The notes under the pieces are model-generated. The model did not search any database. It saw nothing but the letters and a program-made list of their open reading frames with translations, and was not told the DNA's origin. From contig NZ_SMFQ01000005.1 in the NCBI RefSeq assembly GCF_004339015.1, positions 62,001 to 126,000 on the forward strand: a stretch of DNA of 64,000 bases. The letters are read 5' to 3'. Below, piece after piece: positions 37,325-52,028 of the stretch; the first letter of the stretch is position 1; each line of letters starts with the position of its first letter. Position numbers and translations under genes: made by a program. Source of the DNA: Cocleimonas flava (GTDB lineage: Bacteria; Pseudomonadota; Gammaproteobacteria; Thiotrichales; Thiotrichaceae).

Positions 37325-37609
37325 TTAAATCGAATGAAACACTTCGCCCGCATGAGGATGAATCGCATCGCCGTCCACAACGCCTGCTTCAACCATCTTA
37401 TCAAACATCATTTTAGCCGTGTCGCTGGCTGCATCCGCTGTTGCTTGATCAGGATATTTTGCTAGAACGACGCCTTTACCATTTCCGTATGAAACGAAAT
37501 CGATAAAATCTGCACCCGCACCTTCTAAGTCACCGCGTAAACCTTCCGCTATCTGGCCTGCTTTATCCATGTCTGACGATGCAAAACGTGTGATTGTGTA
37601 AACTGCCAT
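37325..37609 (-). CDS. Small soluble protein, possible ferredoxin-like alpha/beta barrel
   Basis: 94 residues from ATG 37609 (MAVYTITRFASSDMDKAG), with GGAG upstream; the frame open to 37621 is not needed. The pattern of an initial strand, helix, GADFIDFVSYGNGKGVVLAKY strand pair and a second helix is what dimeric alpha/beta-barrel (monooxygenase-like or EthD-like) proteins show, but I cannot name a family. It could be a small stress or redox protein. It is a single gene with a terminator on one side and a polar C-rich element on the other. Confidence 0.7.
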   Translation of the reverse strand: MAVYTITRFASSDMDKAGQIAEGLRGDLEGAGADFIDFVSYGNGKGVVLAKYPDQATADAASDTAKMMFDKMVEAGVVDGDAIHPHAGEVFHSI

Positions 37610-37651
37610 TTTATACTCCAATTGTTGTTAAATCCTGAGGGAGTAGGAGTA

Positions 37652-37685
37652 TAAGTCACCCCCCTACTTTGGGGCACTTTTTTTA
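37652..37685 (+). repeat. Polar C-rich intergenic element, copy 12
   Basis: AAGTCACCCCCCTACTTT then GGGGCACTTTTTTT, a consensus copy. It lies 66 bases beyond the stop of the minus-strand ABC exporter gene, antisense to it. Confidence 0.9.
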
Positions 37686-37750
37686 CGATTATTACAAAAC
37701 TATCATAAAAAAATGGAATTAAGACCCATCTTCAATATGAGTCGTTAAAG

Positions 37751-39568
37751 CTATTCAGGCAAGAAACCACCCGCTTGCATATTCCATAATTTTGCATAAT
37801 GCCCAACACCTTCAGCGTCGTTACTATGGGACTTATCGAGTAACTCTTGATGCGTCCCATCTTCAATGATTTCACCATTATCAAACACCAAAATACGGTC
37901 CATATCCGATATGGTTGAAAGCCTGTGCGCAACCACGATCACCGTTTTCTTCTCCATCAATCGTTCCAGCCCAAGCTGAATTTTTCTTTCGGTAATTGAA
38001 TCCAATGCAGAAGTCGCTTCATCTAAAATCAAAATAGGTGAATCTTTTAAAATCGCACGCGCAATCGCGATTCGTTGGCGTTGTCCGCCGGAGAGTTTTA
38101 CACCGCGTTCGCCCACTAATGAATCGTAGCCCTCTTCGGTTTGCAGAATAAATTCATGCGCATTGGCTTTCTTTGCAGCTTCGATGACTTCTTCATCGCT
38201 GGCGTCCAGTTTGCCGTAACGAATGTTTTCCATTAAGGAGCGATGGAATAACATCGGGTCTTGCGGAATCAGCGAGATACTCTCGCGCAAGCTATCCTGA
38301 GTCACTTTCTGAATGTCTTGGCCATCGATAGAAATCACGCCACCGCTTGGCTCAAATAAACGTAACATCAAATTAACAAAGGTCGACTTACCTGAGCCAG
38401 AAAAACCTACTAAACCGACTTTTTGATACGGTTTGATATCCACATCCATCTGCTTGAATACCGCCAAACCTTCTGGATAGGTAAAGTCTACTTTTGAGAA
38501 CTTAATGTGACCCTTGGTAACGTTAATATCCTTTGCACCGGGCTGATCGACAATATCGTGCGGTTGAATGAATATCGAAACGCCATCCGAAATATTGCCA
38601 ATGTATTCAAAGAATTCGAGAAAGCTTCGGCTTAGACCACGAGCGGCTTCGATCAACATAATCGAAATACCTGCCACCATCGAAAACTCACCTACGGTCA
38701 TGCCACCTTCAGACCAGATTTTTAAGGCATAGCTGACCATCGAAACCATCAACACCATTGCAGAGACAAATTGGAACCAACGCATCTTTTCCATAAACCA
38801 GAAGTTGCGTTTAGCCGCGACGATTTCCTCATCTATGAATTCGCCCAAGTAGTCCTCTTCAAATTCACCGCGAGCGAACATTTTGGTGTTCATCATATTA
38901 GTCACAGAATCGACCACTTTACCGGTTACCTTAGAGCGTGCAGCAGCAAAGGTTTTAGAATAGGTTTGGCATTTTCTGGCCAACAGAATTGAAATCGACA
39001 CATACACAATCAACCAAACCATCAATACCAAGGCGAGCTTTGGCGTTGTGTTAAATAGAATAATCAGAGCTACGGTTGATTGAATGATTAATGGATAGAA
39101 CGTAAAGCAAATCGTCCATAAAGAATGCATGCAACTGGTCGCAATTTCAGTAATCCGATTTGCCAGTGAGCCTGCAAAATGCGAGACAAAATAACGGTGT
39201 GAATGAAACTGTAAATAACGAAACAAAGAGCGCCTGATAATAGATCGTAGACGTGGCCCATTACTCACCAGAATCGCGCCACTGGCTCGGCTAAACAGCA
39301 CGATGCCTAAATTTAGCAGGGCAAAAAACACCAGAGAATCATAAGCCGCATCAAACACATCAGCACCGGTTTCATTCGCCATTGTTACCGCATCGATGAT
39401 CTGTTTCACCGCATACGGCAGCATGATGGTGCAACTCGCCTGAGCCGCTTCAAAACTGAGGATGGCAACAATCGCCAATGACATTTTACGATAAAAATAC
39501 AACGCAAAACGCCACGGTGTGCGTGGAAGTTTCGGTGCTTTATCGGCAATGGTGAAGGTAGAATCCAT
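37751..39568 (-). CDS. ABC exporter (fused permease and ATPase)
   Basis: 605 residues. The N-terminal ~330 residues carry six transmembrane helices of a type I exporter (ASCTIMLPYAVKQIIDAV, RYLQFHSHRYFVSHFAGSLA). The ATPase follows with Walker A GFSGSGKST, Q-loop SLIPQDPMLFH, signature LSGGQRQR, Walker B ILILDEATSALD and the switch His in VVAHRLS. One half-transporter is encoded, so it should work as a homodimer exporting a lipid, drug or peptide. The substrate is unknown; it does not look like a lipid A flippase by context. Confidence 0.92.
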   Translation of the reverse strand: MDSTFTIADKAPKLPRTPWRFALYFYRKMSLAIVAILSFEAAQASCTIMLPYAVKQIIDAVTMANETGADVFDAAYDSLVFFALLNLGIVLFSRASGAILVSNGPRLRSIIRRSLFRYLQFHSHRYFVSHFAGSLANRITEIATSCMHSLWTICFTFYPLIIQSTVALIILFNTTPKLALVLMVWLIVYVSISILLARKCQTYSKTFAAARSKVTGKVVDSVTNMMNTKMFARGEFEEDYLGEFIDEEIVAAKRNFWFMEKMRWFQFVSAMVLMVSMVSYALKIWSEGGMTVGEFSMVAGISIMLIEAARGLSRSFLEFFEYIGNISDGVSIFIQPHDIVDQPGAKDINVTKGHIKFSKVDFTYPEGLAVFKQMDVDIKPYQKVGLVGFSGSGKSTFVNLMLRLFEPSGGVISIDGQDIQKVTQDSLRESISLIPQDPMLFHRSLMENIRYGKLDASDEEVIEAAKKANAHEFILQTEEGYDSLVGERGVKLSGGQRQRIAIARAILKDSPILILDEATSALDSITERKIQLGLERLMEKKTVIVVAHRLSTISDMDRILVFDNGEIIEDGTHQELLDKSHSNDAEGVGHYAKLWNMQAGGFLPE

Positions 39569-39664
39569 GTGATGAGTGTCCTATAGAAAACACTATAAAC
39601 CAAACATTATGGGGACTATGTTTTACGATTAAAAGACGTTAAAGAATACGAATAAATTATAATT

Positions 39665-39696
39665 TTAGTCACCCCCCTACTTACAGGCACTTTTCT
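39665..39696 (+). repeat. Polar C-rich intergenic element, copy 13
   Basis: TAGTCACCCCCCTACTT then ACAGGCACTTTTCTA, without the GGGG arm. It lies downstream of the minus-strand BRCT-LRR operon and antisense to it. Confidence 0.85.
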
Positions 39697-39832
39697 ATCA
39701 ATTAATCATAAATCGAGGGTAATATAAGCACTAAACTTTATTGAACTGGAAAGCTGAGATGAAGACATCTCTGAATTCGTGACATGGGCTCTTACTCAAT
39801 TAATAGATTTTGTAAAACCAATTTTGGATGTC

Positions 39833-42800
39833 TTAATTTTTTTCCATTATGACCCCATCAAACATCGCTTCTAAATCCTCTAACCAGTTTTTAGGGCGAT
39901 TTACAGAAGGTAGATTTAAAATAGTAATTCTTTTTAGACTTGGCATTTTAAACACAGAAAAGTCTCTGACTAGTGCATCATCAAGTACTAACTCTTCTAA
40001 GTTTGAAAAATAGTTATGGCTACTATTATCTATAATGAGATTTGTCTTTTGCAGTATCAGTTTTGCGATTTTAAGAGGTTTTTCAAACGGAGGAAACCAA
40101 GATGTTTTATGTTTACCGTACGAAATATAATCTTCGTACAGTTTAAGTGTCTCTAAACCCTCAAGCTTTTCAATGCCTATCAATTTAGGATTGTAGTCCG
40201 CCATAACCTCTAAAACACGAAGTTGTTTAAATCCCTCCAAGTCAGAAAAATCATCAGTTTTATAAGCTTGTTTAAAAACTTCAACATTGGGGAAATTTTC
40301 TGATTTAAAGTTCTCGATTTTAATGTGACTGATGTTTAATTTCTTTATAGGATAAATAGCATGCTTTACACGACTCATGCACAGTTTTAGTTCATACAAC
40401 TTTGGTAGATTTGTAACATCAAAGTCAAAAACACCCTCATATTTATCTTGATAAATTCTTTGAAGTGAATCAACCATGATCTTTTTCTGTGTGTTTGTAT
40501 CCATTTCTACATCAACCAAATCAAGAGATTCGATATTGGAAAATGGCATCACATCTTCACAATGATAAGTTAAATCCTTCAATACTAGTTTCTTAATAGA
40601 AGGAATTTCAATTGAAGTTTTAAAGTAAATATCACTATATGAAGCACCATCACCTATTAATGATAAAGACTGTATATTCGGATGCTTTTCTAAACTATCT
40701 AAAATTAAACGGTCTATTGATGCATCATTCTTGAACTCATCAACAAAGTCATAACGCAAAGTAAGCTTTTCGACGATGTTGTTTAACATCATATCTAGTG
40801 GAGCATTATAGACTACTTCTAAGGACTGAACTTCATGTACCCATTGTTTTTTACAAGTCAGAGCTGATGTAATTAACTTTAAATATTCACTTTTTAAACT
40901 ACCAGTAGTCCCTTCAATATTAATTGATTTTGCTTCTATAATTATAGACTTAGCATCAAGCTTCTGAACACACTCGTTCAGTGTAAACTTTCGTTTATCT
41001 TCTATATGTATTTCTTCTAAGGATGAAGTAAAGAACTTTGAATACGTTTCGCTATCAAAAGTACAATTATTAATTTCAAGTTTTTTAGGTGAGCCACTTA
41101 TGAAGAGTTCATCGTTAATTTTTTTAATATTCGTTAAATGTATTTCACCGTTATTATTAAGCTCTTCTGTGACTAATTCTTTTGATGTTATGTCTAAGAA
41201 TTTAGCCGCTTCAATCTTCCCATCAACTTTTACCACCTGAGCTATTAGAGATATTTCATCAAGAGAAAGCGCCCCCTCTATGTGAATTTCTTTTGCAGTT
41301 ATGCTCAAACTTTCTAAATGACTTAACTCTGATGTAGATTTTTTTGGAATAATGATGGTTTCTTTTGTATTTTCAATCGATAGGCTTTTTAACCAAGGCA
41401 TTTTTTCAAAAACATCAGAGTAATATTTGACATAAATATTATCGATATTTGTTGCAAGTCTAAAGTACGAAGAGGCCATACCATCAACTCTGATCCAGCC
41501 TCTCGATTTTGTATTTACAAAATCTACAATGCATTTTTCTGCCCAAATACTTTCTTTTGTTAATAAATAGAATTTAGCTATATCCTTTTTTGCAACGAGC
41601 ACATAAGCGAAAAGCTCAACATCAAAACCCTCTAACTTTTCCAGTGCTAATAAATCTCTTTTAGGTTTTTCGTCATTACCCATTGAAATGTAATTACGCT
41701 TAGCACAAAGCTCTAAAAATGCTTTTCCTATTTTTCCACCGTGACGAGCAATAAGCTCTTTTGCTTCATCTCTGATTTTTTTTGTGGGGTGCACTTTAAA
41801 TAGCCCACAAACTAAAGCAAATACGTCAGTGGGAATACCACCATCTTTCATGAGACTAAAAGCAATATTTACATTACTATCATCATCACTGAAGAGTAAG
41901 TCTTGTAACTTTCCTGCTATATTTTCATTGCTATTTTCAGATAATGTACGGTTTTCTAAACTGCTTAAAAGTTTCTCAAAAGTTATGGCAGATATTACTG
42001 TTATACTTTTAGGCATCTCTTTGATCTTTGGCTTGAACCCTAAAACCAATACATCTGTATCACTGGTAAGTTTAGTCACTATTTTAGCGTTACTTTCCAC
42101 CATTAACTCTTTAACTTGCATAAGCTTGTAGGCTTGTAACGTACCTGTCACACAGAAGGTGAGTCTGTCAAAATTATCGATATCTTTTGAGTAATAAGTA
42201 TGAAATGTTTCCAGTGCTCTTTTTCTTACATTTAAAAGACTAGCGTTTAAGAATGCTAAAAGAGTCTCTGCTTTTGGCTTAAATGAAGGGTTTTGCTCTG
42301 TTAGGAAAAGCCGCAATAAGATGTATTTCTCATCATCTTCTAAATGCTTTAATTCATCTTCAAGTTTTTCATACTTCTTGCGATATTTTTTATCTACTAA
42401 AAAGTCTTTAAAAGGCATTGAAAGAATTTCTTTTGTTACATTATCCCAACGACAAGAGAAAGTATTTATATTAGGATTATTTGCTACTATAACTTTTGTA
42501 ATATCTTGATTTTTAAGTTGTGGAAACTGATATTCAGTTAATGTAGTTATATCTTCTAAGAAAAAAGGTATATATTTTTTAGCATCATTTATTGTAATGC
42601 TACCACAGATAAAAGATTGTAAGTTTAACCATGGCTCATCCCCTTTTCGTCTTTTAATTGATAGTCTATTTCTAGAAGAATAACTATATTCAAAAATCAC
42701 CTCTTCTAACTGCTCATATCGACTTAAAAGTTGGTCAAATGCAAAAAGAGCTGACCAAACCCAAAAATCTTTAAACAGTTTCTGCTCAACAACATCTTTA

Positions 42801-43015
42801 CTTTTAGAAAGTCTTTCATAAACACCTTTAGGAAAATAATCTACTCCAAACGATACATAAAAAAAGTCATTATCGTCTGAATAGTTATCATGGTTATGAA
42901 GACTTTTTACTTTAATTATACTAATGTCATGATCTTTTTTTATTAACTCTTCAACTTGATCAAACCATTCATCGACCCAACAATTTACTTCTACATTTAA
43001 TTCTTTATTAGACAT
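39833..43015 (-). CDS. Large BRCT- and leucine-rich-repeat protein, last gene of a MoxR/VWA operon
   Basis: 1060 residues from ATG 43015, chosen because AAGGA sits 7 bases before it but only 1 base before ATG 43021. Residues 1-250 are an unknown, charged helical region. A BRCT-like domain lies at about 284-355 (FDRLTFCVTGT, MVESNAKIVTKLTSDTDVLV). Then come helical segments with HEAT-like character. Roughly residues 530-1050 are irregular leucine/isoleucine-rich repeats (LESLSITAKEIHIEGALSL, LRVLEVMADYNPKLIGIEKL). No protease or nuclease motif was seen. The gene begins 10 bases after the MoxR ATPase stop. AT-rich composition suggests transfer. A sensor or target-recognition role is inferred. 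Confidence 0.78.
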   Translation of the reverse strand: MSNKELNVEVNCWVDEWFDQVEELIKKDHDISIIKVKSLHNHDNYSDDNDFFYVSFGVDYFPKGVYERLSKSKDVVEQKLFKDFWVWSALFAFDQLLSRYEQLEEVIFEYSYSSRNRLSIKRRKGDEPWLNLQSFICGSITINDAKKYIPFFLEDITTLTEYQFPQLKNQDITKVIVANNPNINTFSCRWDNVTKEILSMPFKDFLVDKKYRKKYEKLEDELKHLEDDEKYILLRLFLTEQNPSFKPKAETLLAFLNASLLNVRKRALETFHTYYSKDIDNFDRLTFCVTGTLQAYKLMQVKELMVESNAKIVTKLTSDTDVLVLGFKPKIKEMPKSITVISAITFEKLLSSLENRTLSENSNENIAGKLQDLLFSDDDSNVNIAFSLMKDGGIPTDVFALVCGLFKVHPTKKIRDEAKELIARHGGKIGKAFLELCAKRNYISMGNDEKPKRDLLALEKLEGFDVELFAYVLVAKKDIAKFYLLTKESIWAEKCIVDFVNTKSRGWIRVDGMASSYFRLATNIDNIYVKYYSDVFEKMPWLKSLSIENTKETIIIPKKSTSELSHLESLSITAKEIHIEGALSLDEISLIAQVVKVDGKIEAAKFLDITSKELVTEELNNNGEIHLTNIKKINDELFISGSPKKLEINNCTFDSETYSKFFTSSLEEIHIEDKRKFTLNECVQKLDAKSIIIEAKSINIEGTTGSLKSEYLKLITSALTCKKQWVHEVQSLEVVYNAPLDMMLNNIVEKLTLRYDFVDEFKNDASIDRLILDSLEKHPNIQSLSLIGDGASYSDIYFKTSIEIPSIKKLVLKDLTYHCEDVMPFSNIESLDLVDVEMDTNTQKKIMVDSLQRIYQDKYEGVFDFDVTNLPKLYELKLCMSRVKHAIYPIKKLNISHIKIENFKSENFPNVEVFKQAYKTDDFSDLEGFKQLRVLEVMADYNPKLIGIEKLEGLETLKLYEDYISYGKHKTSWFPPFEKPLKIAKLILQKTNLIIDNSSHNYFSNLEELVLDDALVRDFSVFKMPSLKRITILNLPSVNRPKNWLEDLEAMFDGVIMEKN

Positions 43016-43025
43016 CTGCATATCC

Positions 43026-44129
43026 TTAAACGGTTAAAATCAACATTGCTAATACTGGATCAGAAAACAACTTCTTGATTTCGCTTCGTTTGTCTTTTGC
43101 TATTTCTTGCACCAAAATTAAACGTAAATCTTCAGGTATGAGTGAGAGCTTAAGAAACTTTTTTAAATTTTCCACTTCTGAAGTATTTAATTCATTCTGA
43201 GCGACATAATTGACTAATCGTATGCCTATAGTCGATAAAATATCTATACGTTTTACCTGCTGATTTACTAATGTTTCAATTTTCGGGGCGATAGTTTGTT
43301 CAAACTTCCTCGATTCTAAAATTTCTTTTGGTGCTATAAGTTTATCAAGGTTATTAGATACAAAAGCAGTAAAAGCAGAAGCTGTATTTTTATCGAGTGA
43401 TGAGAGAGCTAAAGTATTGACCAGCAGTAAGTTTTCTTTTAAATCATCTATGTTTTTTATACTTTCAAAAAATTGAACTAGTGAGCGAGGAGTAGTCAAT
43501 TCACCTGTAACTAGCTCAGGATAAGTTAAAACAAAATTGACGCCGCGCTCATCTACGCCATTTTTTAGTGCCCAGGACGCCCAATTTTTAACATCAAACT
43601 CCATAGATACATGCATCATTCTGGTAAGCATTGCATCATCCATAGTGGTAATGGAGTAGTCTCCCCCTTCTGGGTTAGCCGTTAAAATAATATGCCATTT
43701 ACTGGGTAGCTTCCATGCAGAAAGTTCATAGTTTTGAAGCAATTGCATAATACCTCGTAAGATTCTGTCATCTGCACGATTAACATCATCTATAAGCAAT
43801 ATACCCGGACCTTCAGTAGTCGGAACCCACTCTGGGGGAGCAAACTTGGTGCTATTAGTTTCTTTGTCTAAGTAAGGCATTCCTAATAAATCCCCCATCT
43901 CTTCGAATTGAGCAGGTGCAACATAGGCAAAATCATAGCCATTTTCTTCTGCAATTTGCTCAACTAATTGCGTTTTTCCAATACCATGTCTTCCCCAGAT
44001 ACATAAAGGTGTTTTTACATTTAAATCTTCGTTGAAATGAATATTGAGTTGATGATTTACAAATGAGCTTATGGCATCTGTATTACAAAATGCACCATAA
44101 TACTTATAGGTATACTGGCTATCAGACAT
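43026..44129 (-). CDS. MoxR-type AAA+ ATPase
   Basis: 367 residues. Walker A GRHGIGKT at 46-53, Walker B GILLIDDVNRA at 109-119, sensor 1 ILTANPEGG, and an LTRM arginine-finger-like motif after TMDDAM. The region FEEMGDLLGMPYLD is typical of MoxR relatives acting with VWA proteins. The C-terminal third is helical and family-specific. A good AAAGGA site precedes the ATG. It lies 9 bases after the VWA/peptidase gene and 10 bases before the BRCT-LRR start, so the three form one operon. MoxR ATPases usually remodel or activate a partner, with the VWA protein as adaptor. Confidence 0.88.
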   Translation of the reverse strand: MSDSQYTYKYYGAFCNTDAISSFVNHQLNIHFNEDLNVKTPLCIWGRHGIGKTQLVEQIAEENGYDFAYVAPAQFEEMGDLLGMPYLDKETNSTKFAPPEWVPTTEGPGILLIDDVNRADDRILRGIMQLLQNYELSAWKLPSKWHIILTANPEGGDYSITTMDDAMLTRMMHVSMEFDVKNWASWALKNGVDERGVNFVLTYPELVTGELTTPRSLVQFFESIKNIDDLKENLLLVNTLALSSLDKNTASAFTAFVSNNLDKLIAPKEILESRKFEQTIAPKIETLVNQQVKRIDILSTIGIRLVNYVAQNELNTSEVENLKKFLKLSLIPEDLRLILVQEIAKDKRSEIKKLFSDPVLAMLILTV

Positions 44130-44138
44130 AGATTTCCT

Positions 44139-45347
44139 TTACGTATTCATGAAAACTACACGACCATCAAGGTCGTTGGTTAGTTCTTTTTTGTTATAAA
44201 TTAACCAAAGAATCGGTACTCTACTTTTGATTTTGGGACTCTCAGCCATCCCATCAGTAAAGTAAATGATTGCATCACCTTTAATAACATCATTGTTATA
44301 TGCTATGGGGGCATCAAAACTAGTACCACCGCGCCCTTGAGTGAAACTTGGTATTTTTCCCTTGTAGGCATAGCTACGTTGAATATCAACATCACATTCT
44401 ACGATTATGATTTCTACATTCTGTTTCCATATATGAAAAATCTCATGGAAATATTCTTGTAGATCTCTATCTCTTAAACTACCTGAAGTGTCTAACACGA
44501 TACAAAGTATGTTTCGCCTTTTTATCTTTGTGCCTGGGATGGTTCCATAACGCCTTGAAGGTCTAGATAGGGTATTTTTTAAATAGGTTTTTTTACTTGA
44601 TGTCACAAAAACCTTTAGTGCTCTTTTCCAGTCGACCTTCTGTGTTTTATAAATGACAATTGTGTCTAGATAACTACGCAACGATTCGCTGACACTTCCC
44701 CACGAGTTATTGAGAGTCATTTTATTATTTATACTCACAAACAAATGGTTTAAATTATTTTCTATTATTCCATTTTTAGCTTCAATATTATCATCAAAAC
44801 TTCGCCAGCTTTCATGAGAAGAAAAACACGTTCTTTTCTCTAATTTTGAAAGTAAATTTATTGGACAAACTGCGTCATCATTTTGCTCAGAATTACAATC
44901 ATTCGATTTTTCATATACTTTTAATAAAGCATCATAGTAATAATTTAAATTCTTGTTAGTTTCAAGATGCACGCCTTGGGTTTCTAAAAATAACAAAGTG
45001 AATGCATCATGCGGCAATTCTTCAGTTTGTAAGTTTTGATTCACCACTAAATCAGAAGCCAAATAGAATATATTTTTCATTTTATACTCACGTGCTCTAA
45101 GAGGGTGTTTGTAAACTAAGTGCAAAAGCTCATGTTTTATCAACCCTTTTTTAACCTTTTCAGTTTGTGCAAACCAATACTCTGGCTCAAAAATAAACTC
45201 TATAAACTCACGTGAAGGAACGAAAGAAAGTTTATGTTGAGACGTAATTTTTTTTTTAACAAACCCTACAAAAAGATGACCATAAAAAGGCTCTTCAATG
45301 AGTAATTGATACGAGATTCTATTGATGTCTTGTAATAAATTATCCAC
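44139..45347 (-). CDS. Putative zinc metallopeptidase with VWA domain (DUF2201-like)
   Basis: 402 residues, starting at a GTG (45347). The N-terminal half carries HELLHLVYKH (H72-H81), a HExxHxxxxH zinc-peptidase signature as in DUF2201 proteins. The C-terminal half is a VWA-like domain with an intact MIDAS DTSGS (D286, S288, S290) and GGTSFDAP supplying the second metal-site residue, then FTDG. Such proteins pair with MoxR ATPases. It is the first gene of the three-gene operon; only a weak purine-rich site precedes the GTG. Whether the peptidase is active cannot be told. The upstream 249 bases are AT-rich. Confidence 0.85.
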   Translation of the reverse strand: MDNLLQDINRISYQLLIEEPFYGHLFVGFVKKKITSQHKLSFVPSREFIEFIFEPEYWFAQTEKVKKGLIKHELLHLVYKHPLRAREYKMKNIFYLASDLVVNQNLQTEELPHDAFTLLFLETQGVHLETNKNLNYYYDALLKVYEKSNDCNSEQNDDAVCPINLLSKLEKRTCFSSHESWRSFDDNIEAKNGIIENNLNHLFVSINNKMTLNNSWGSVSESLRSYLDTIVIYKTQKVDWKRALKVFVTSSKKTYLKNTLSRPSRRYGTIPGTKIKRRNILCIVLDTSGSLRDRDLQEYFHEIFHIWKQNVEIIIVECDVDIQRSYAYKGKIPSFTQGRGGTSFDAPIAYNNDVIKGDAIIYFTDGMAESPKIKSRVPILWLIYNKKELTNDLDGRVVFMNT

Positions 45348-45590
45348 TTATCTTTTATTTTTAATGTACATAGATTGATTATACTCACCATTTCCACTTT
45401 AAGCTGAATAGTTTCTAAGCCGCCCCATACTTTTTATCCAATCCTTTTAACAGCGATAATAATTAATCTTCTTATTCAGCCTATGTATTTTGGATCCAGA
45501 GATTTCTAATAACATTCATTTAGACACAAGTATTAATGGATAGATGATAAGCTTGCAGCTTACTAAGTTCAGAATGGCATCTGGGAAACA

Positions 45591-45990
45591 ATAGCTATGA
45601 AACGTTTGCATGATTTTTTGACGTCCAATTTTTTACTTCTCTCATTAATGATGATGCTCACAGCCTGCTCTGTTAGCCCGCAAAGAACCACTTCCGTTAA
45701 ACCTTCCAGCTTACCCACTACTACAGAGCTTGCGGGTAAATACAGTCTGTTTGCTGGTTCGGAAGTGAGTTTTGATGTCAGTGAGCAAAACGGAAATCTA
45801 TTGGTTTCTATGTTTGGTGTTAAATCAAAACTACAAAAAATCACTCCAATACGCTACCGATTCGCCACGGTCAATGAAGGCAGGCCTCGATGGTTTATTC
45901 GAGAAGATTCACTGCAACGCAATCGAGCCAGTGTCACTAATCAAGCTGTTTATACGCAACGACTAGCCAAAAACTTAAAACCCGGTGATA
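45591..45990 (+). repeat. Partial tandem duplicate of the esterase gene 5' end
   Basis: Starting at ATAGCTATGA, this 400-base unit is nearly identical to 45991-46447. It lacks an internal in-frame stretch of 57 bases (19 codons), present downstream between two copies of GATTCG, which is the likely deletion site. Only a few base substitutions were noticed. Confidence 0.92.
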
Positions 45991-46013
45991 ATAGCTATGA
46001 AACGTTTGCATGA
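45597..46013 (+). pseudogene. Truncated duplicate of the lipoprotein esterase gene (N-terminal fragment)
   Basis: The frame gives 138 residues identical to the start of the downstream esterase (lipobox LTAC, Cys24), minus 19 residues, then NSYETFA and stop where it runs into the second copy. It has no hydrolase domain, so it cannot be an esterase. It keeps the native upstream region with GGGAAAC before the ATG, and its stop (46013) lies just past the start codon of the intact copy (45997). Translation of the intact gene may therefore depend on coupling to this fragment. It could yield a short lipoprotein. Confidence 0.85.
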
Positions 46014-47208
46014 TTTTTTGACGTCCAATTTTTTACTTCTCTCATTAATGATGATGCTCACAGCCTGCTCTGTTAGCCCGCAAAGAACCACTTCCGTTAA
46101 ACCTTCCAGCTTACCCACTACTACAGAGCTCGCGGGTAAATACAGTTTGTTTGCTGGTTCGGAAGTGAGTTTTGATGTCAGTGAGCAAAACGGAAATCTA
46201 TTGGTTTCTATGTTTGGTGTTAAATCAAAACTACAAAAAATCACTCCAATACGCTACAGATTCGACGACGGTAACGAGCTTAAATTCGATTATAATCGAG
46301 AAGGTATTTATGACCGATTCGCCACGGTCAATGAAGGCAGGCCTCGATGGTTTATTCGAGAAGATTCACTGCAACGCAATCGAGCCAGTGTCACCAATCA
46401 AGCTGTTTATACGCAACGACTAGCCAAAAACTTAAAACCCGGTGATTATACCTTTTCACGATTCATAAGCCCTTCTCGCGGACTTGTTGATTATTCCGTT
46501 TACCTTCCGCCAGAATGGAAACGCAATAGCAACAAAACGTATCCTTTGGTGTTTTTTCTACACGGTCAGTTAGGTTGGGAGCATAGCTTCCCCGATAGTG
46601 TGCCGGCATCGCAATTAAATCAATGGATAGCCCAAGGCTCAATTCCACCGATGGTGATTGTGTCATTACGTACAGGTCGATTAAATGGGAGGGTGGAAGA
46701 ACAATGGTCTTCTGCACGCAATGAAACGTTATTGACCAGTGAAAATAGCAATGAATTACGTCAATACATTCGTCAGCAATTCAGAGCGGGTATGTCTGCT
46801 AGAACCACGGCAATACATGGCCACTCTCGGGGTTCTCGCGGTGCAATTCATTACGCTTTAAAGTACCCAAACAGCTTTTCATCTGCAGTCGCTAATGCGT
46901 TTGTGAGTGACTACGCGCTGGATGAAACCAAAAGAATTGCCCTGCAAAACCAACAGCAGATAAGAAACCGAGGCATTCCACTGCGTATTTCAATTGGTGA
47001 TAGAGATGAGTTCGCCTTAAACATGGGGCGAAAAGCATCACCTGTGATTCATCAATACCTGAATAATTTAAATATCCTACACGACTACGAAGTTTTCCCG
47101 GGCGTTGATCATGGGTTCGTCAATATCTGGAATACCAGACAAAGAACGGGCTTACCAAATGGTCTGGGTGAATTACAACTGCATGCAGAGGCATGGGCCA
47201 AGGGTTAA
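45997..47208 (+). CDS. Lipoprotein alpha/beta-hydrolase (enterochelin esterase/EstD-like)
   Basis: 403 residues from ATG 45997. Lipobox LTAC puts Cys24 at the mature N-terminus. Residues 40-155 form a beta-rich domain; the hydrolase starts around DYSVYLPPEWK and has the oxyanion-type FFLHGQLGW, nucleophile GHSRG (S277), Asp in GDRDEF (D335 or D337) and His in GVDHGF (H372). It resembles putative esterases of the enterochelin-esterase type, anchored in the envelope. Its own promoter region has been replaced by the partial duplicate upstream, and only a weak ribosome site (CGGTGATAA) precedes it. Confidence 0.85.
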   Translation: MKRLHDFLTSNFLLLSLMMMLTACSVSPQRTTSVKPSSLPTTTELAGKYSLFAGSEVSFDVSEQNGNLLVSMFGVKSKLQKITPIRYRFDDGNELKFDYNREGIYDRFATVNEGRPRWFIREDSLQRNRASVTNQAVYTQRLAKNLKPGDYTFSRFISPSRGLVDYSVYLPPEWKRNSNKTYPLVFFLHGQLGWEHSFPDSVPASQLNQWIAQGSIPPMVIVSLRTGRLNGRVEEQWSSARNETLLTSENSNELRQYIRQQFRAGMSARTTAIHGHSRGSRGAIHYALKYPNSFSSAVANAFVSDYALDETKRIALQNQQQIRNRGIPLRISIGDRDEFALNMGRKASPVIHQYLNNLNILHDYEVFPGVDHGFVNIWNTRQRTGLPNGLGELQLHAEAWAKG

Positions 47209-47223
47209 TGACATATAGCTAAG

Positions 47224-48288
47224 CTAGCCCTGACCTGTTGTCGTTTTAAACCTGACTGTTGGGCTATCGTCGTCAACGACGCCGTTGTTATCAAAACTAG
47301 TGTTACCAGAACCAGTATTACCAACATCAGCGCTACCAGCACCAGTATTAGTGCTTACCCAGCTCATGGCTTTTTCTTTCATTTCGCGGAATTTTTTCGA
47401 GCCTTGTTCTAACTTGCCTTCCCATTCAGGGTTGGGTTGTTGATCTTGTGTTACTTTAAAGAACACCTGCATCAAGGCTGTCATTGCAAACGGATCTATT
47501 AACGCCGCTTTAATACTTATCGAAGCGACTATCGCGATCATCAGTGGCCACATTCCACCGACTTGTCCGGTTAGTTGTAACAAAAGAGCAATTGGTCCGA
47601 AGGTTAATAACATCACCAATGCGGTTAAAATCCAGCTGATAACTGTTACAAATACCGCATTTTTTAGAAAGACTTTATAGTTTTGGGCGTACAGCACAAC
47701 AGCCTGTTTAGAGCCTTCCCATGGATTATCTATTTCATTTTTGATGTTATAGGCGAGGATAATTTCATCAACATAGGTCGTTGAATTTTTAACGATAGCA
47801 TTGACGAATTTAACTATCGGCTGGGGAATAAACGGCAGAAAACTTAATATGCCTTCAAACAGGCTGGTAATAAACTTAACGACTTTCTTGATCACTTGAT
47901 CCACCGCAAACAAAACCGATGCTTCTTTAAACCGGTCTTTAACGATGGCCTGCGCATAACTGATTTGGCCTTTACCTGATGGGATTTCTTCCTTATCCAG
48001 ATATTTCAGGATGACGGCAATATGGCCTGCTTTCACCATATAGAGCAAGTACTCACGCACATAAAACAATATGCCCGTAACCAGTCCAAAGCCACCGATA
48101 ATTCCATAGAAGGCGCCCGCCTCAGACTCGCCAGCGACTTTACCGATAAGGGAACCTACCCCAGCACCCGCGCCGGTGGCGATCACATACGCGATAGTAA
48201 TGCCAAAATAAATCAGAAACCTAAATAACATGAATGATTTAGTTTTCCACAGCGCGGAAAAAACGTCTTTTATTTTGAAGTCCAACAT
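47224..48288 (-). CDS. Uncharacterised multi-pass membrane protein
   Basis: 354 residues from ATG 48288, preceded by GGGAG; the frame to 48312 is an unneeded extension. About five to six hydrophobic segments, several Gly-rich (IATGAGAGVGSLIGKVAG, FYGIIGGFGLVTGILFYV), alternate with amphipathic regions such as FEGILSFLPFIPQPIVKFV. A C-terminal cytoplasmic tail is low-complexity (Gly, Asn, Ser, Thr). I do not recognise the family, though the layout resembles large uncharacterised membrane proteins with DUF4013-like folding. It converges on the esterase gene with only 15 bases between stops. Confidence 0.75.
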   Translation of the reverse strand: MLDFKIKDVFSALWKTKSFMLFRFLIYFGITIAYVIATGAGAGVGSLIGKVAGESEAGAFYGIIGGFGLVTGILFYVREYLLYMVKAGHIAVILKYLDKEEIPSGKGQISYAQAIVKDRFKEASVLFAVDQVIKKVVKFITSLFEGILSFLPFIPQPIVKFVNAIVKNSTTYVDEIILAYNIKNEIDNPWEGSKQAVVLYAQNYKVFLKNAVFVTVISWILTALVMLLTFGPIALLLQLTGQVGGMWPLMIAIVASISIKAALIDPFAMTALMQVFFKVTQDQQPNPEWEGKLEQGSKKFREMKEKAMSWVSTNTGAGSADVGNTGSGNTSFDNNGVVDDDSPTVRFKTTTGQG

Positions 48289-48437
48289 TTCATCACTCCC
48301 ATAATCTATCAAAGCACGTTACAAAACTCTCGGTTCTGCAACACTTGTTGAGTTAATGATTATTTATATAACAAATGATTTTTGGGAGCTGTGATGTATT
48401 TCACATTTATAGAAATCGACAGGAATTAGAAAAGATA

Positions 48438-48471
48438 TAAGTCACCCCCCTACTTTAAGGGCTTTTTTATT
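48438..48471 (+). repeat. Polar C-rich intergenic element, copy 14
   Basis: AAGTCACCCCCCTACTTT then AAGGGCTTTTTTATT. It sits between divergent genes. Confidence 0.88.
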
Positions 48472-48611
48472 GTAGCTTCAATCATTAATGATATGGCAAA
48501 CGTAACTACAAAAAAGAAAGTAAGATTGATAAGCGATAGCGCCATATAGGCTTCGTAGGGTAAACTAAATGCGAAAGCGGTAATCAATTTACTAATAGCT
48601 CTGCCTCTCAT
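48450..48611 (-). CDS. Possible small membrane protein (53 aa) ending inside a polar C-rich element
   Basis: Reading by hand gives MRGRAISKLITAFAFSLPYE, then a hydrophobic run (ALSLINLTFFFVVTFAISLM) and a basic end KKPLK, with the TAG stop inside the element. A single transmembrane helix is plausible. There is no ribosome site, and chance or a gene remnant is possible. Below the usual length cut-off; listed only as a candidate. Confidence 0.25.
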   Translation of the reverse strand: MRGRAISKLITAFAFSLPYEAYMALSLINLTFFFVVTFAISLMIEATIKKPLK

Positions 48612-48838
48612 AGTAAAATTTTTTTAGGCGGGTTCGTAAGATATCACTTTACTATTTATTAATAATAACAATCACCTATAAATAAGAACTGAATAAAAAC
48701 AATACGAACAAAGAAGAAGAATAAGAAATTTAAAAGTGCCATTTAAGCAATTATTTGCTGTACTTTTGAGGAGGATATAGACGAATAAATTAACACTTCG
48801 TTAGTTTATGCGTAATCATATTCATTGAGGGTAAACGT

Positions 48839-50068
48839 ATGTCAGGCAACTTATTCGAAGATGCTGTTTGCATTTTATTAGCAGGTGGAAAAGGTTCTCG
48901 CCTACAACCTTTAACCACAGATCGAGCTAAACCAGGTGTCCCATTTGGCGGTAAATACCGCATCATTGATTTCACCCTGAGCAACTGTTTACACTCGGGT
49001 ATTCGACGCGTTCTGGTGCTCACTCAATACAAATCTCATTCACTGCAATTACACCTTTGTGATGCCTGGTCGATCTTCAATCCTGGACTTGGGGAATATA
49101 TAACCGCAGTTCCGCCGCAGATGCGCACAGGAGATTCCTGGTATAAAGGTACGGCTGATGCGATTTATCAAAACATCTGCTTACTAGAAAGCAGTGGCGC
49201 TAAAAAAGTTGTGATTCTGTCAGGTGATCACATATATCGCATGGATTATGGCGCTATGCTAGAACACCATAATGAATTTGAGGCTGACCTTTCAGTCGCC
49301 TGCATGCAAGTCCCTATTGATGAGGCAAGCGCGTTTGGCATTATGACCATTAATGAACAAAGTCAGGTCATTCAGTTTGAAGAAAAACCCGAGAACCCCG
49401 CCTGCATGCCTAATCAAACAGAGTTTGCATTGGCCTCGATGGGGATTTACATTTTCAATATTGATACCCTGGTTGATGCTTTAAGCAAAGATAACCTTAA
49501 CCCTTTATCATCACATGATTTTGGCAAAGACATTCTGCCCTTATTAATCAAATCACATAATGTGGTTGGCTATGAATTCGGCGGCAGTGAAGGACGGGTA
49601 ACACCAGATCGCTACTGGCGTGATGTAGGCACGATAGATTCATATTTCGATGCCAATATGGATTTGCTTTCGCCTCAACCGCCACTAAATCTGTATCAAA
49701 AATCATGGCCGATACGCACCTATCACGGTCAACATCCACCCGCCAGAATAATCACGGCTCACGATAACGAACAGGGTAAAATTAAAAACGCCATTATCGG
49801 CAGCGGTTCAATGGTTATAGATGCGACGATAATTAAATCTATCCTGTCCGCGAATGTCCGAGTCAATGAAAACGCCCACATCGAATCCAGTATTATTTTT
49901 GATCATGTACAGATAGGTGCTGGTGCTAAATTACGCGACTGTATCGTCGACAAACATGTGCAAATACCAGAAAGAATGATAATCGGCTATGACAAAGAGG
50001 AAGATGCCAAACGCTTTACCCTCTCGAAAAACGGAATAGTGGTTGTACCAAAAGGCTTTGGCCAATAA
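48839..50068 (+). CDS. glgC: Glucose-1-phosphate adenylyltransferase (ADP-glucose pyrophosphorylase)
   Basis: 409 residues. The N-terminal nucleotidyltransferase has the ATP site LLAGGKGSRLQPLT and PGVPFGGKYRIIDF, GTADAIYQN, SGDHIYRMDYG and FEEKPENP. A left-handed beta-helix follows (NAIIGSGSMVIDATIIKSIL, DCIVDKHVQIPERMIIG). It makes ADP-glucose from glucose-1-phosphate and ATP, the first committed step of bacterial glycogen synthesis, and is normally allosterically controlled. GAGGG precedes the ATG. No glgA, glgB or glgP is nearby, so it is an isolated gene here. It converges on the aspartase gene. Confidence 0.95.
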   Translation: MSGNLFEDAVCILLAGGKGSRLQPLTTDRAKPGVPFGGKYRIIDFTLSNCLHSGIRRVLVLTQYKSHSLQLHLCDAWSIFNPGLGEYITAVPPQMRTGDSWYKGTADAIYQNICLLESSGAKKVVILSGDHIYRMDYGAMLEHHNEFEADLSVACMQVPIDEASAFGIMTINEQSQVIQFEEKPENPACMPNQTEFALASMGIYIFNIDTLVDALSKDNLNPLSSHDFGKDILPLLIKSHNVVGYEFGGSEGRVTPDRYWRDVGTIDSYFDANMDLLSPQPPLNLYQKSWPIRTYHGQHPPARIITAHDNEQGKIKNAIIGSGSMVIDATIIKSILSANVRVNENAHIESSIIFDHVQIGAGAKLRDCIVDKHVQIPERMIIGYDKEEDAKRFTLSKNGIVVVPKGFGQ

Positions 50069-50102
50069 TCAGTAAACACCTATCAATTAACACCGTTTAC
50101 TG

Positions 50103-50134
50103 TGGTCACCCCCCTACTTTGGCGCCTTTTTTTC
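50103..50134 (+). repeat. Polar C-rich intergenic element, copy 15
   Basis: GGTCACCCCCCTACTTT then GGCGCCTTTTTTT, between convergent glgC and aspartase genes. Confidence 0.9.
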
Positions 50135-50159
50135 AGTGGATTAAAAGATGCCCGCTCGA

Positions 50160-52028
50160 TTAACGCACCATATTTTCCGGTGCTAGCACATCATCTAATT
50201 GTTCTTTAGAGAGTAACTGTTGTTCCAGAACTAAATCATAAACACTGCGATGATCATCCAGCGCTTCTTTAGCCAAAGCCGTACAAACTTCATAACCCAG
50301 ATGTGGATTAAGTGCTGTAACAATCCCGATGGAGTTCTTTACATTATCTGAACAGGTTGCTTCATTCGCTGTTATTCCAGCAATACAACGACTACCCAGA
50401 ATATCCATACCGCGTTTAAGAATTTCGACGGATTCAAACAGGCTTTCAACCATCACAGGTTCCATCACATTGAGTTCAAGTTGCCCTGCTTCTGCCCCTA
50501 AGGTTGTCGTCAAATCATTACCAATTACTTTAAAGGCAATTTGATTAACCACTTCGGGAATAACTGGATTAACTTTACCTGGCATGATCGAAGAACCGGG
50601 TTGCATTGGCGGTAAGTTGATTTCGTTGAGTCCGGCGCGTGGTCCAGATGAAAGTAAACGAAGATCATTACAGATTTTAGACAGTTTTACCGCGAGTTGT
50701 TTAAGCGCTGATGAGTACATCACCAACGAACCCGTATCATGCGTGGCTTCAATCAAGTCATCAGCCAATACGATATCCCGTCCTGTCACTTTACATAAGT
50801 GTTGTACGACTCGCTCTCTATAGCGAGGATCTGCATTGAGTCCTGTACCAATCGCTGTTCCACCCATATTCACCGTTAGAAAAGAATGACTACAGGTTTT
50901 CAGGCGTTTAATCTCATTTCGTAAACTGGTGGCATACGCATTAAAGCTTTGACCTAAGGTCATTGGTACTGCATCTTGTAATTGGGTACGGCCCATTTTC
51001 AGGATATCGGAAAACTCAAAACTCTTATCATCAATAATCGCGATCAGCTTATGCACTTCAACCAGTAACTTATCGTTGGTGTCCATGAGTGCAACTTTCA
51101 TTGCGGTTGGATAAGCATCGTTGGTTGATTGAGAATAATTGATATGATTATTCGGGTGACAATATTTATATTCACCGCGCTGATGTCCCAGAATCTCTAA
51201 AGAACGATTGGCAATCACTTCGTTAGCATTCATATTGGTCGACGTTCCTGCTCCGCCCTGCAACATATCTACAATAAAATGGTTATGTAACATGCCCATC
51301 CCAATCTCATCGCAGGCCTGACAGATCGCGCCGATAATATTATCCGGGATATGACCTAAATCGTGGTTTGCCATCGCCGCAGCTTTCTTTACTTTGGCGA
51401 GTCCTTTAATAAAGTCAGGATAAAAGTTTAAGGTGATGCCACTGATGTCAAAGTTTTCCAACGCTCGAAGCGTTTGAATACCATAATAAGCCGTTGCTGG
51501 TACTTCTTTTTCGCCCAGCAAATCATGCTCAACACGTCGACCTCGAGCACGGTAAAGCGCGGATATATTTTTATAACGACTGTTTGCGTGCTCCATCCGG
51601 CGAATAATAATTTGCGCAATAGTAGCAGAAATTGTCAACGCCAAATCACCACGTTGACTGAGTAAATGATGTAATGCTTCGCGCTCGAATCGGTACAACG
51701 TTCCTTCCGATAACAACCGTGCACAAACCCCTTGTTTATGAGGTGGTGCAATCAGAATGGTTTCGCAGATAAACTCATAGGTCGAAAATACAGTCAGGCT
51801 TCTCTCTCGATCACCTTGATCATCAAATAACTGAACACTACCAGATGCAACAACATACAGTGCGTCGGTATAGTCATTTGTCCTAAACAGAACATCACCT
51901 GTTTTAAAATCCTGAGATTGAGCATGTTCTGCAAAAAGCGCTAAATCCTCATCGCTAATACCTTGAAATAATTCGACTTTATTTAACAGTGAAATTACAG
52001 ATTGTTCTGTGACGGACTTTTTGCTCAT
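50160..52028 (-). CDS. aspA: Aspartate ammonia-lyase with N-terminal cyclic-nucleotide-binding-type domain
   Basis: 622 residues, ~150 longer than ordinary AspA. Residues 15-145 form a CAP/cNMP-binding-type beta-roll (FKTGDVLFRTNDYTDALYVV, ASGSVQLFDD, and a FICET loop where ligand contacts usually lie). The lyase begins around RVEHDLLGEKEVPATAYYG (165) and is complete: GTSTNMNANEVIANR, NYSQSTNDAYPTAMK and the signature GSSIMPGKVNP (478-488) holding the catalytic Ser. It converts L-aspartate to fumarate and ammonia, feeding the TCA cycle. The front domain may add allosteric control; its cAMP-contact residues are not clearly conserved. Confidence 0.88.
   Translation of the reverse strand: MSKKSVTEQSVISLLNKVELFQGISDEDLALFAEHAQSQDFKTGDVLFRTNDYTDALYVVASGSVQLFDDQGDRERSLTVFSTYEFICETILIAPPHKQGVCARLLSEGTLYRFEREALHHLLSQRGDLALTISATIAQIIIRRMEHANSRYKNISALYRARGRRVEHDLLGEKEVPATAYYGIQTLRALENFDISGITLNFYPDFIKGLAKVKKAAAMANHDLGHIPDNIIGAICQACDEIGMGMLHNHFIVDMLQGGAGTSTNMNANEVIANRSLEILGHQRGEYKYCHPNNHINYSQSTNDAYPTAMKVALMDTNDKLLVEVHKLIAIIDDKSFEFSDILKMGRTQLQDAVPMTLGQSFNAYATSLRNEIKRLKTCSHSFLTVNMGGTAIGTGLNADPRYRERVVQHLCKVTGRDIVLADDLIEATHDTGSLVMYSSALKQLAVKLSKICNDLRLLSSGPRAGLNEINLPPMQPGSSIMPGKVNPVIPEVVNQIAFKVIGNDLTTTLGAEAGQLELNVMEPVMVESLFESVEILKRGMDILGSRCIAGITANEATCSDNVKNSIGIVTALNPHLGYEVCTALAKEALDDHRSVYDLVLEQQLLSKEQLDDVLAPENMVR

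Follow-up and report, generated by a model that had tools for sequence, protein, structure and literature searches.

A window of 64,000 nucleotides from Cocleimonas flava (contig NZ_SMFQ01000005.1, positions 62,001 to 126,000 of the forward strand) was analysed, and a three-gene operon on its minus strand was characterised, in which a DUF2201-type metallopeptidase fused to a VWA domain is followed by a MoxR-type AAA+ ATPase and by a large protein that combines leucine-rich repeats (LRRs) with a BRCT domain. The list of open reading frames (ORFs) confirmed the three tightly packed frames reported in a preliminary description of this DNA. The first two genes were separated by 9 bases, and the large protein began 4 bases after the MoxR gene when counted from its first ATG and 10 when counted from its second. 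The genes and the parts of the third one were as follows.

44139..45347, minus strand: gene 1, DUF2201-type metallopeptidase fused to VWA, Pfam matches above cut-offs, HELLH at residues 72-76, H81, metal ion-dependent adhesion site (MIDAS) at 286-290
43026..44129, minus strand: gene 2, MoxR-type AAA+ ATPase, AAA_5 at 32.7 bits, Walker motifs
39833..43021, minus strand: gene 3, third component of 1062 residues, with N-terminal region, BRCT, helical module and LRR
41687..42256, minus strand: conserved core of gene 3, residues 256-445, BRCT (about 284-356) and helical module with S378...G394-G395
39836..41554, minus strand: LRR region of gene 3, residues about 490-1062, weak Pfam LRR match at 749-838, poorly modelled

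Gene 1 encoded 402 residues from a GTG start and matched DUF2201_N at 41.2 bits (cut-off 23.2) and the VWA-like DUF2201 family at 40.7 bits (cut-off 26.4) in Pfam. Its HELLH and MIDAS (DTSGS) motifs were intact, as had been stated before. In the AlphaFold2 model, with a mean pLDDT (predicted local distance difference test) of 87.8, residues 276-402 formed a VWA fold with a best Z score of 11.6, and the VWA domain of NorD was matched at Z 11.3. Among 42 aligned VWA sequences, that of the window included, H72, H76, H81, D99, D286, S288, S290, D319 and D365 were identical throughout, and E73 was kept in 38, the window protein itself having Glu. Genes with HQxxH at this place were located at L075:7331-8629, L093:8484-9893, L114:11102-12304 and L124:7949-9217 (L numbers denote the loci compared). 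Gene 2 encoded 367 residues, and its AAA_5 score lay above the cut-off of 22 bits, in agreement with the earlier identification. The Walker A motif GxxGxGKT, both Walker B Asp residues and the NRA motif were invariant in a six-row alignment (A1), and the P-loop of the window protein was GRHGIGKT. On the basis of homology to annotated MoxR ATPases, gene 2 is assigned to the MoxR clade. The HExxH motif, the MIDAS and an adjoining MoxR gene, by which the DUF2201 metallopeptidase-VWA plus MoxR type is recognised, were all present in the window.

For gene 3, both Pfam matches fell just short of their gathering scores, BRCT with 19.6 of 21.3 bits and LRR with 26.3 of 27 bits, so that the earlier terms "BRCT-like" and "irregular" for the repeats were fair; plain LxxLxLxxNxL repeats were seen in its homologues. 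The best LigA model matched the BRCT region at E 3.2e-4. Searches of Pfam and NCBIfam returned LRR, BRCT and marginal matches for gene 3 and no enzymatic effector domain, and they detected no AAA, STAND or propeller domain in the large protein or the VWA protein. The predicted structure of the large protein had a mean pLDDT of 54.4, and only residues 221-440 were well modelled (pLDDT of at least 79 in 19 of 22 ten-residue blocks). Confidence was low in the N-terminal 220 positions and over a large share of the LRR region. In this model residues 221-440 fold as a BRCT domain flanked by helices on both sides. With VIA-align, the BRCT domain resembled LigA (9a6z, Z 9.5 over 73 residues) and RFC1 (7u1a, Z 8.5 and 27% identity over 73 residues, with further RFC1 entries at Z 7.6-8.3). 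Plain Foldseek with the large-protein model gave no PDB match at E≤0.001, and it matched the RFC1 BRCT 2ebu at E 0.078 (probability 1.00). Judged from the model, gene 3 carries a BRCT fold whose nearest relatives are those of LigA and RFC1. The helices after the BRCT resembled HEAT-like adaptors (AP2 chains, Z 7.7-9.3), although middling Z scores of this kind may mean little for helical repeats. LRR-like structural matches at residues about 490-703 lay in the low-confidence part of the model, and the matches to LRRs of nucleotide-binding leucine-rich repeat receptors (NLRs) were not over-read. Within the core, conservation was highest at S378 (54/58), G395 (57/59), G293 (52/58), L376 (51/58) and G394 (47/59), and four short core matches were without, or nearly without, the BRCT part.

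When the large protein alone was used to scan the genome collection, no relative was obtained, a result probably due to the shortness of its conserved part; the route through a MoxR alignment succeeded. By this route 197 MoxR relatives were obtained from 84,980 genomes, the best 80 were kept (52-58% identical to the window MoxR), and ORFs were called for each locus. The VWA gene was present within the stretch compared in 46 of these 80 loci, and 35 of the 46 also carried a protein with the LRR-BRCT-helical core; since the 80 are the nearest of the 197, the proportion of 35 in 80 does not show how common the trio is in nature. Among the 34 loci without VWA, 31 had neither partner and three had a core protein (L095, L103 and L092), the sequence ending just upstream of MoxR in L095 and L103 and the MoxR frame of L092 having been missed by the ORF caller. 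The association of VWA and core gave a Fisher p of 9.7e-10, which is a guide only because the loci, chosen as nearest to the window MoxR, are related. The 35 trio loci were distributed over Bacteroidota (22), Pseudomonadota (12) and Myxococcota (1), and Vibrio, Photobacterium, Ferrimonas and Microbulbifer were represented in the 80-locus set. Where MoxR had been called (33 of the 35), VWA preceded it in 31, as in the window, and the two genes were adjacent in 31. Two to four core proteins were found in 16 of the 35 loci. The third component was built of LRR, BRCT and the conserved helical module, often in the order LRR-BRCT-helical-LRR.

The LRR and core proteins were concentrated close to MoxR. 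In VWA loci they accounted for 35 of the 139 proteins within two genes of it and for 4 of the 333 at a distance of five or more genes; where VWA was missing, the corresponding counts were 5 of 117 and 0 of 195. An LRR protein was defined here by three or more repeat matches, and L089, L092, L134 and L142, in which the MoxR frame was not called, were left out of these counts and of the MoxR tree. At E≤1e-3 the core profile reached 61 ORFs across 85 loci; as these loci and the large protein had served to build the profile, the count is partly due to construction. Two controls were independent of this construction. In 20 generic DUF2201-VWA loci, drawn from the 105 genomes with a match among 369 of the class (VWA ORF called in 18), none of 320 ORFs matched the core profile at E≤1. 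Across the 369 genomes, the core alignment at E≤1e-8 gave a full match only in the window's own genome, and thus the trio is rare in the class sample; the other 31 matches covered mainly the BRCT part, 30 of them in frames of 656-760 residues, which are taken to be LigA. From these comparisons the trio is judged to recur in other bacteria and to be conserved beside this VWA-MoxR subfamily. The idea of a MoxR-VWA remodelling pair with a BRCT-LRR third component was thereby supported, and conservation of the trio, set beforehand as the test, was borne out by the 35 loci; the remark that the pairing looked unusual is unsupported, as the trio recurs in three phyla. At two Saprospira loci (L071:9204-9965 and L074:9204-9965), a MoxR 58% identical to that of the window was seen with an LRR protein directly upstream, and no VWA was found in the stretch compared.

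The surroundings of the operon were then compared with a genome of the same genus (G011) by DNA alignment, and two further features were defined.

39643..45583, no strand: insertion relative to G011, from flank alignments and GC; no gene recognised besides the operon
45597..46013, plus strand: incomplete tandem duplicate of the 5' part of the esterase gene at 45985-47208, bordering the insertion on its right; near-identical to the beginning of that gene apart from an internal deletion

The insertion, from 39643 to about 45583 (5.94 kb), carried the operon. It had a GC content of 32.4% against 41.0% in the rest of the window, which agreed with the higher AT content noticed earlier. Window positions 37326-39642 and 45997-51249 aligned to G011 at 95.7% and 93.3% DNA identity, and the two flanks were separated in G011 by only 83-94 bp of other sequence. 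In that genome the ABC transporter (100% protein identity) lay about 1.4 kb from the homologue (98%) of the 47224-48312 protein. The insertion began directly after 39642 and stopped at the start of the esterase, and its neighbours, described before as a transporter and a duplicated gene, were the ABC transporter on one side and the tandemly part-duplicated esterase on the other; the esterase start was present in a single copy in G011. The large protein occurred in one of 63 genomes of the order, the window's own; many of the others were drafts, and completeness of at least 90% with contamination of no more than 5% applied to 46 of the 63. For this reason gain is favoured over loss in G011, which is possible in principle, and the cassette apparently arrived in this chromosome by horizontal transfer, as had been proposed. 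No integrase- or transposase-like ORF was found in the ORF list of the insertion, the plasmid collection gave no match to the large protein, Rfam detected no RNA between 37000 and 50000, and promoter-like and terminator-like sites were not commoner than in shuffled sequence. A 14-nt inverted pair (93%) near both ends of the insertion (39696 and 45298) was likely due to chance, as one of 36 inverted pairs in the repeat scan. A second DUF2201-type VWA gene of the generic class type, in a 452-residue frame, was noted elsewhere in the same genome (G000:C2:293786-294265, L150); no core protein was detected in the 16 kb around it, and no MoxR was recognised alongside by BLAST at 1e-6.

Mobility was also visible outside Cocleimonas. 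An 8.4-kb unit of two core genes (LRR-BRCT), VWA and MoxR was shared at 90% identity by Ferrimonas aestuarii (L117) and Vibrio (L115), and the flanks were unmatched save for short cross-matches among core genes. On this sequence comparison the unit is a clear case of transfer between genera. A third core gene lay beyond the shared stretch in L117, and in the Photobacterium locus L090 a single such core gene corresponded to the two of L091. In the MoxR tree, the window was not placed within the Vibrio-Photobacterium-Ferrimonas-Microbulbifer clade (100/100) or within any other strongly supported group. The N-terminal LRR was less conserved than the core in all eight orthologue pairs compared (the pairs are not independent), and between two paralogues of one Vibrio locus identity fell from 59% in the core to 43% in the C-terminal LRR and 26% in the N-terminal LRR.

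Viral relatives were found for the enzymatic pair. The VWA domain of gene 1 matched 39 predicted viral proteins at E≤0.001, many of them named metallopeptidase or VWA-like, and a scan of IMG/VR with the window MoxR gave 10 loci, in five of which (L038-L042) the same VWA adjoined MoxR. The order VWA to MoxR was found in L038 and L040-L042, with MoxR 41-54% identical to that of the window. Clear phage genes were carried by L038 and L042, and L040 and L041 had the DNA-polymerase family of L042. Neighbour functions were inspected in four phage loci, L035, L036, L038 and L042, of which the first two lie outside the close subfamily, and in each of them the pair had genes for a DNA polymerase, an exonuclease or a helicase nearby. 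In L040-L042, a phage protein of 316-352 residues, encoded 1-3 ORFs upstream of the phage VWA, matched chiefly the helical part of the core (hhalign P 69%, E 4.4e-5; among 14 other syntenic phage families the best E was 0.049), and its single-profile scores were marginal. As the match was weak, local and mainly helical, this family was rejected as a full homologue of the BRCT core. In L039, a distant locus, a BRCT-LRR protein of 1367 residues (P0001) lay beside MoxR-VWA and a dnd_rel_methyl gene (579.6 bits). Its BRCT was seen only through weak BRCT and LigA matches, and it was not counted as a trio member because the core profile missed it at E≤1e-3. Adjoining these L039 genes, a protein of 401 residues with nine DUF4116 stretches was encoded at L039:2456-3658. 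At L042:6476-7936, PHROG 1314, labelled "HNH endonuclease", matched the metallopeptidase-VWA protein of that locus; the label, which is also borne by phage records, is probably wrong.

MoxR-vWA ternary conflict systems, some of them in Bacteroidota and proteobacteria, have been described by Kaur et al. (2020; PMC7159879). The present operon is like those systems, as presented in the main text of that paper, in having a MoxR AAA+ ATPase, a vWA with intact MIDAS and a larger third component. It differs in the regular fusion of its VWA to a DUF2201 metallopeptidase, and probably also in the third component, which is LRR-BRCT-helical here and VMAP, iSTAND, FtsH or a vWA-fused beta-propeller there. 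The P-loop GXXXTAKS, frequent in their FtsH and beta-propeller subsystems, was absent here. Among the domains that occasionally take the effector position, that paper names metallopeptidase domains and HEAT repeats, so neither the metallopeptidase nor a HEAT-type part would be foreign to such systems. In that main text the terms "BRCT" and "DUF2201" do not occur, and "LRR" occurs once, in the reference list. For jumbo phages, a group 2.2 MoxR/metallopeptidase-vWA pair was described by Iyer et al. (2021; PMC7824862), with virion assembly proposed as its role. In that pair, too, MoxR adjoins a metallopeptidase-vWA fusion, but an LRR-BRCT component is not described in the available text; L038 and L042, whose pairs are near that of the window, adjoin replication genes, which is compatible with the virion-assembly proposal and does not disprove it. 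Generic gammaproteobacterial DUF2201-VWA genes belong to the same families, have HExxH and MIDAS and often occur with MoxR (of 20 loci, 14 had MoxR directly before VWA, and in the remaining ones MoxR lay apart from VWA or went unrecognised), but they were only 20-30% identical, and a core protein was found in none of the 20 loci. The BRCT domains of LigA and RFC1 share the fold (Z 7.6-9.5, 18-27% identity over 73-76 residues among the matches listed), whereas the BRCT here is fused to LRR and a helical S...GG module and scores just under Pfam gathering. In a literature search that lay outside most subscription journals and all bioRxiv preprints, MoxR was found neither with BRCT nor with DUF2201, and no paper combined MoxR, BRCT, leucine-rich repeat and VWA. 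The trio is not described in the available text of PMC10907252, PMC8195603 and PMC12839542.

Taken together, we lean, with some reserve, towards a horizontally mobile AAA+ machine for remodelling or proteolysis that is addressed by LRRs. As in other MoxR-vWA couples, the engine for remodelling would consist of the MoxR ring and the VWA MIDAS, and the LRRs would select the protein target. The BRCT-helical core would be the constant docking part, with the helical S...GG motif engaging the VWA-MoxR engine, and the LigA/RFC1-like BRCT may put the core on DNA or on a phosphorylated end. The engine would unfold the target, or the receptor itself, and then cleave it where the Glu of HExxH is kept, as it is in the window. 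Most likely, the machine would serve either in conflicts with phages or mobile elements or in controlling protein complexes bound to DNA. A conflict role is plausible, being favoured by mobility, patchiness, cassette-like receptors and the likeness to the ternary systems of PMC7159879 as presented in its main text; given such a machine, we put a role in defence at somewhat short of an even chance. A more elaborate picture is offered tentatively and is rather doubtful: swappable LRR-BRCT receptors, often several per locus, would address a shared engine to DNA-bound proteins in a mobile, immune-like fifth kind of MoxR-vWA ternary system, and the S...GG helical module would be the common docking signal, with a reduced version that phages would carry close to replication genes and to a VWA-MoxR pair of their own.

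Several observations weigh against an LRR-addressed, proteolytic machine with a part in defence. Omega was 0.01-0.22 in every region of the eight orthologue pairs, which indicates purifying selection; with values of 0.22 or less there was no sign of an arms race, and positive selection on the LRRs was rejected for these pairs. Families of PADLOC numbered 38 among 150 (of 197) trio-flank proteins and 41 among 150 (of 183) proteins flanking MoxR loci without VWA or core (families, not proteins, being counted), so a location of the trio in defence islands was unsupported. In addition, 11 of the 46 VWA loci had no recognised core protein, some of them at contig ends, no VWA was found by BLAST in five of the 10 viral loci (L043-L047), and the Thr preceding G293 of the window, which we take to be part of the BRCT phosphate pocket, occurred in no other core row shown. 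Contact among the three proteins is a prediction. In four of the 42 VWA proteins (L075, L093, L114 and L124) Gln replaces the catalytic Glu while the metal ligands are kept; these members are predicted to be catalytically dead peptidases, and proteolysis therefore cannot be universal in the family. Accordingly, the sensor of DNA damage or phage with a proteolytic response, suggested in the preliminary description, was upheld in part. The LigA/RFC1-like BRCT and the phage cousins beside replication genes speak for a sensor, and the flanks without an excess of defence families and the purifying selection on the compared LRRs speak against it; the Gln-bearing relatives speak against a general proteolytic response. 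With PADLOC-DB 2.0.0 at E≤1, no family matched the VWA or the large protein, and three matched MoxR (best E 0.0016).

Other explanations were weighed against this machine. The operon could serve the repair of DNA-protein conflicts, the BRCT-LRR protein bringing metallopeptidase and unfoldase to DNA ends or stalled complexes to clear DNA-bound proteins, a logic analogous to that of SPRTN/Wss1 with p97. The nearest BRCT relatives, LigA and RFC1, and the intact HExxH of the window agree with this, as does the position of VWA-MoxR pairs near replication genes in L035, L036, L038 and L042; that neighbourhood is weak evidence, however, because phage replication clusters are dense, and two of the four loci, L035 and L036, fall outside the close subfamily. 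It would be odd for a repair enzyme to have a patchy, mobile distribution and LRR paralogues that are variable and multiplied, and HQxxH in four of 42 VWA sequences also speaks against this explanation. Repair is considered unlikely. Alternatively, the LRR-BRCT protein may be a client that MoxR-VWA matures or activates and that then acts elsewhere, as with cofactor-loading or assembly couples. Several core proteins often share a single pair (16 of 35 loci), the HQxxH relatives retain their metal ligands, and known MoxR-vWA couples work in assembly and insertion according to the main text of PMC7159879. However, the large protein has no enzymatic effector domain in Pfam and NCBIfam, its first 220 residues and much of its LRR being poorly modelled, and its most conserved part is a short helical module that looks more like a docking element; we regard the client explanation as improbable. 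That a domesticated phage pair of the virion-assembly type was joined by chance to an LRR gene is very improbable. It would fit the gene order and MoxR identity of L038 and L040-L042 and the role proposed in PMC7824862, but it is largely refuted by the recurrence of the trio in 35 bacterial loci with closer MoxR proteins (52-58%); moreover, the MoxR tree has no strongly supported group joining the window to phages, and the insertion holds three genes only.

To our knowledge, few substrates are known for MoxR-vWA machines. If the LRR-addressed machine favoured here is correct, the operon would represent an undescribed class of MoxR-vWA systems, in which LRR recognition resembling that of eukaryotic NLRs is combined with a metallopeptidase and a BRCT of the DNA-end type. 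This class would be common to Bacteroidota and Gammaproteobacteria and would have phage cousins, and it would provide a testable part list, comprising docking motif, receptor and engine, for MoxR-vWA machines.

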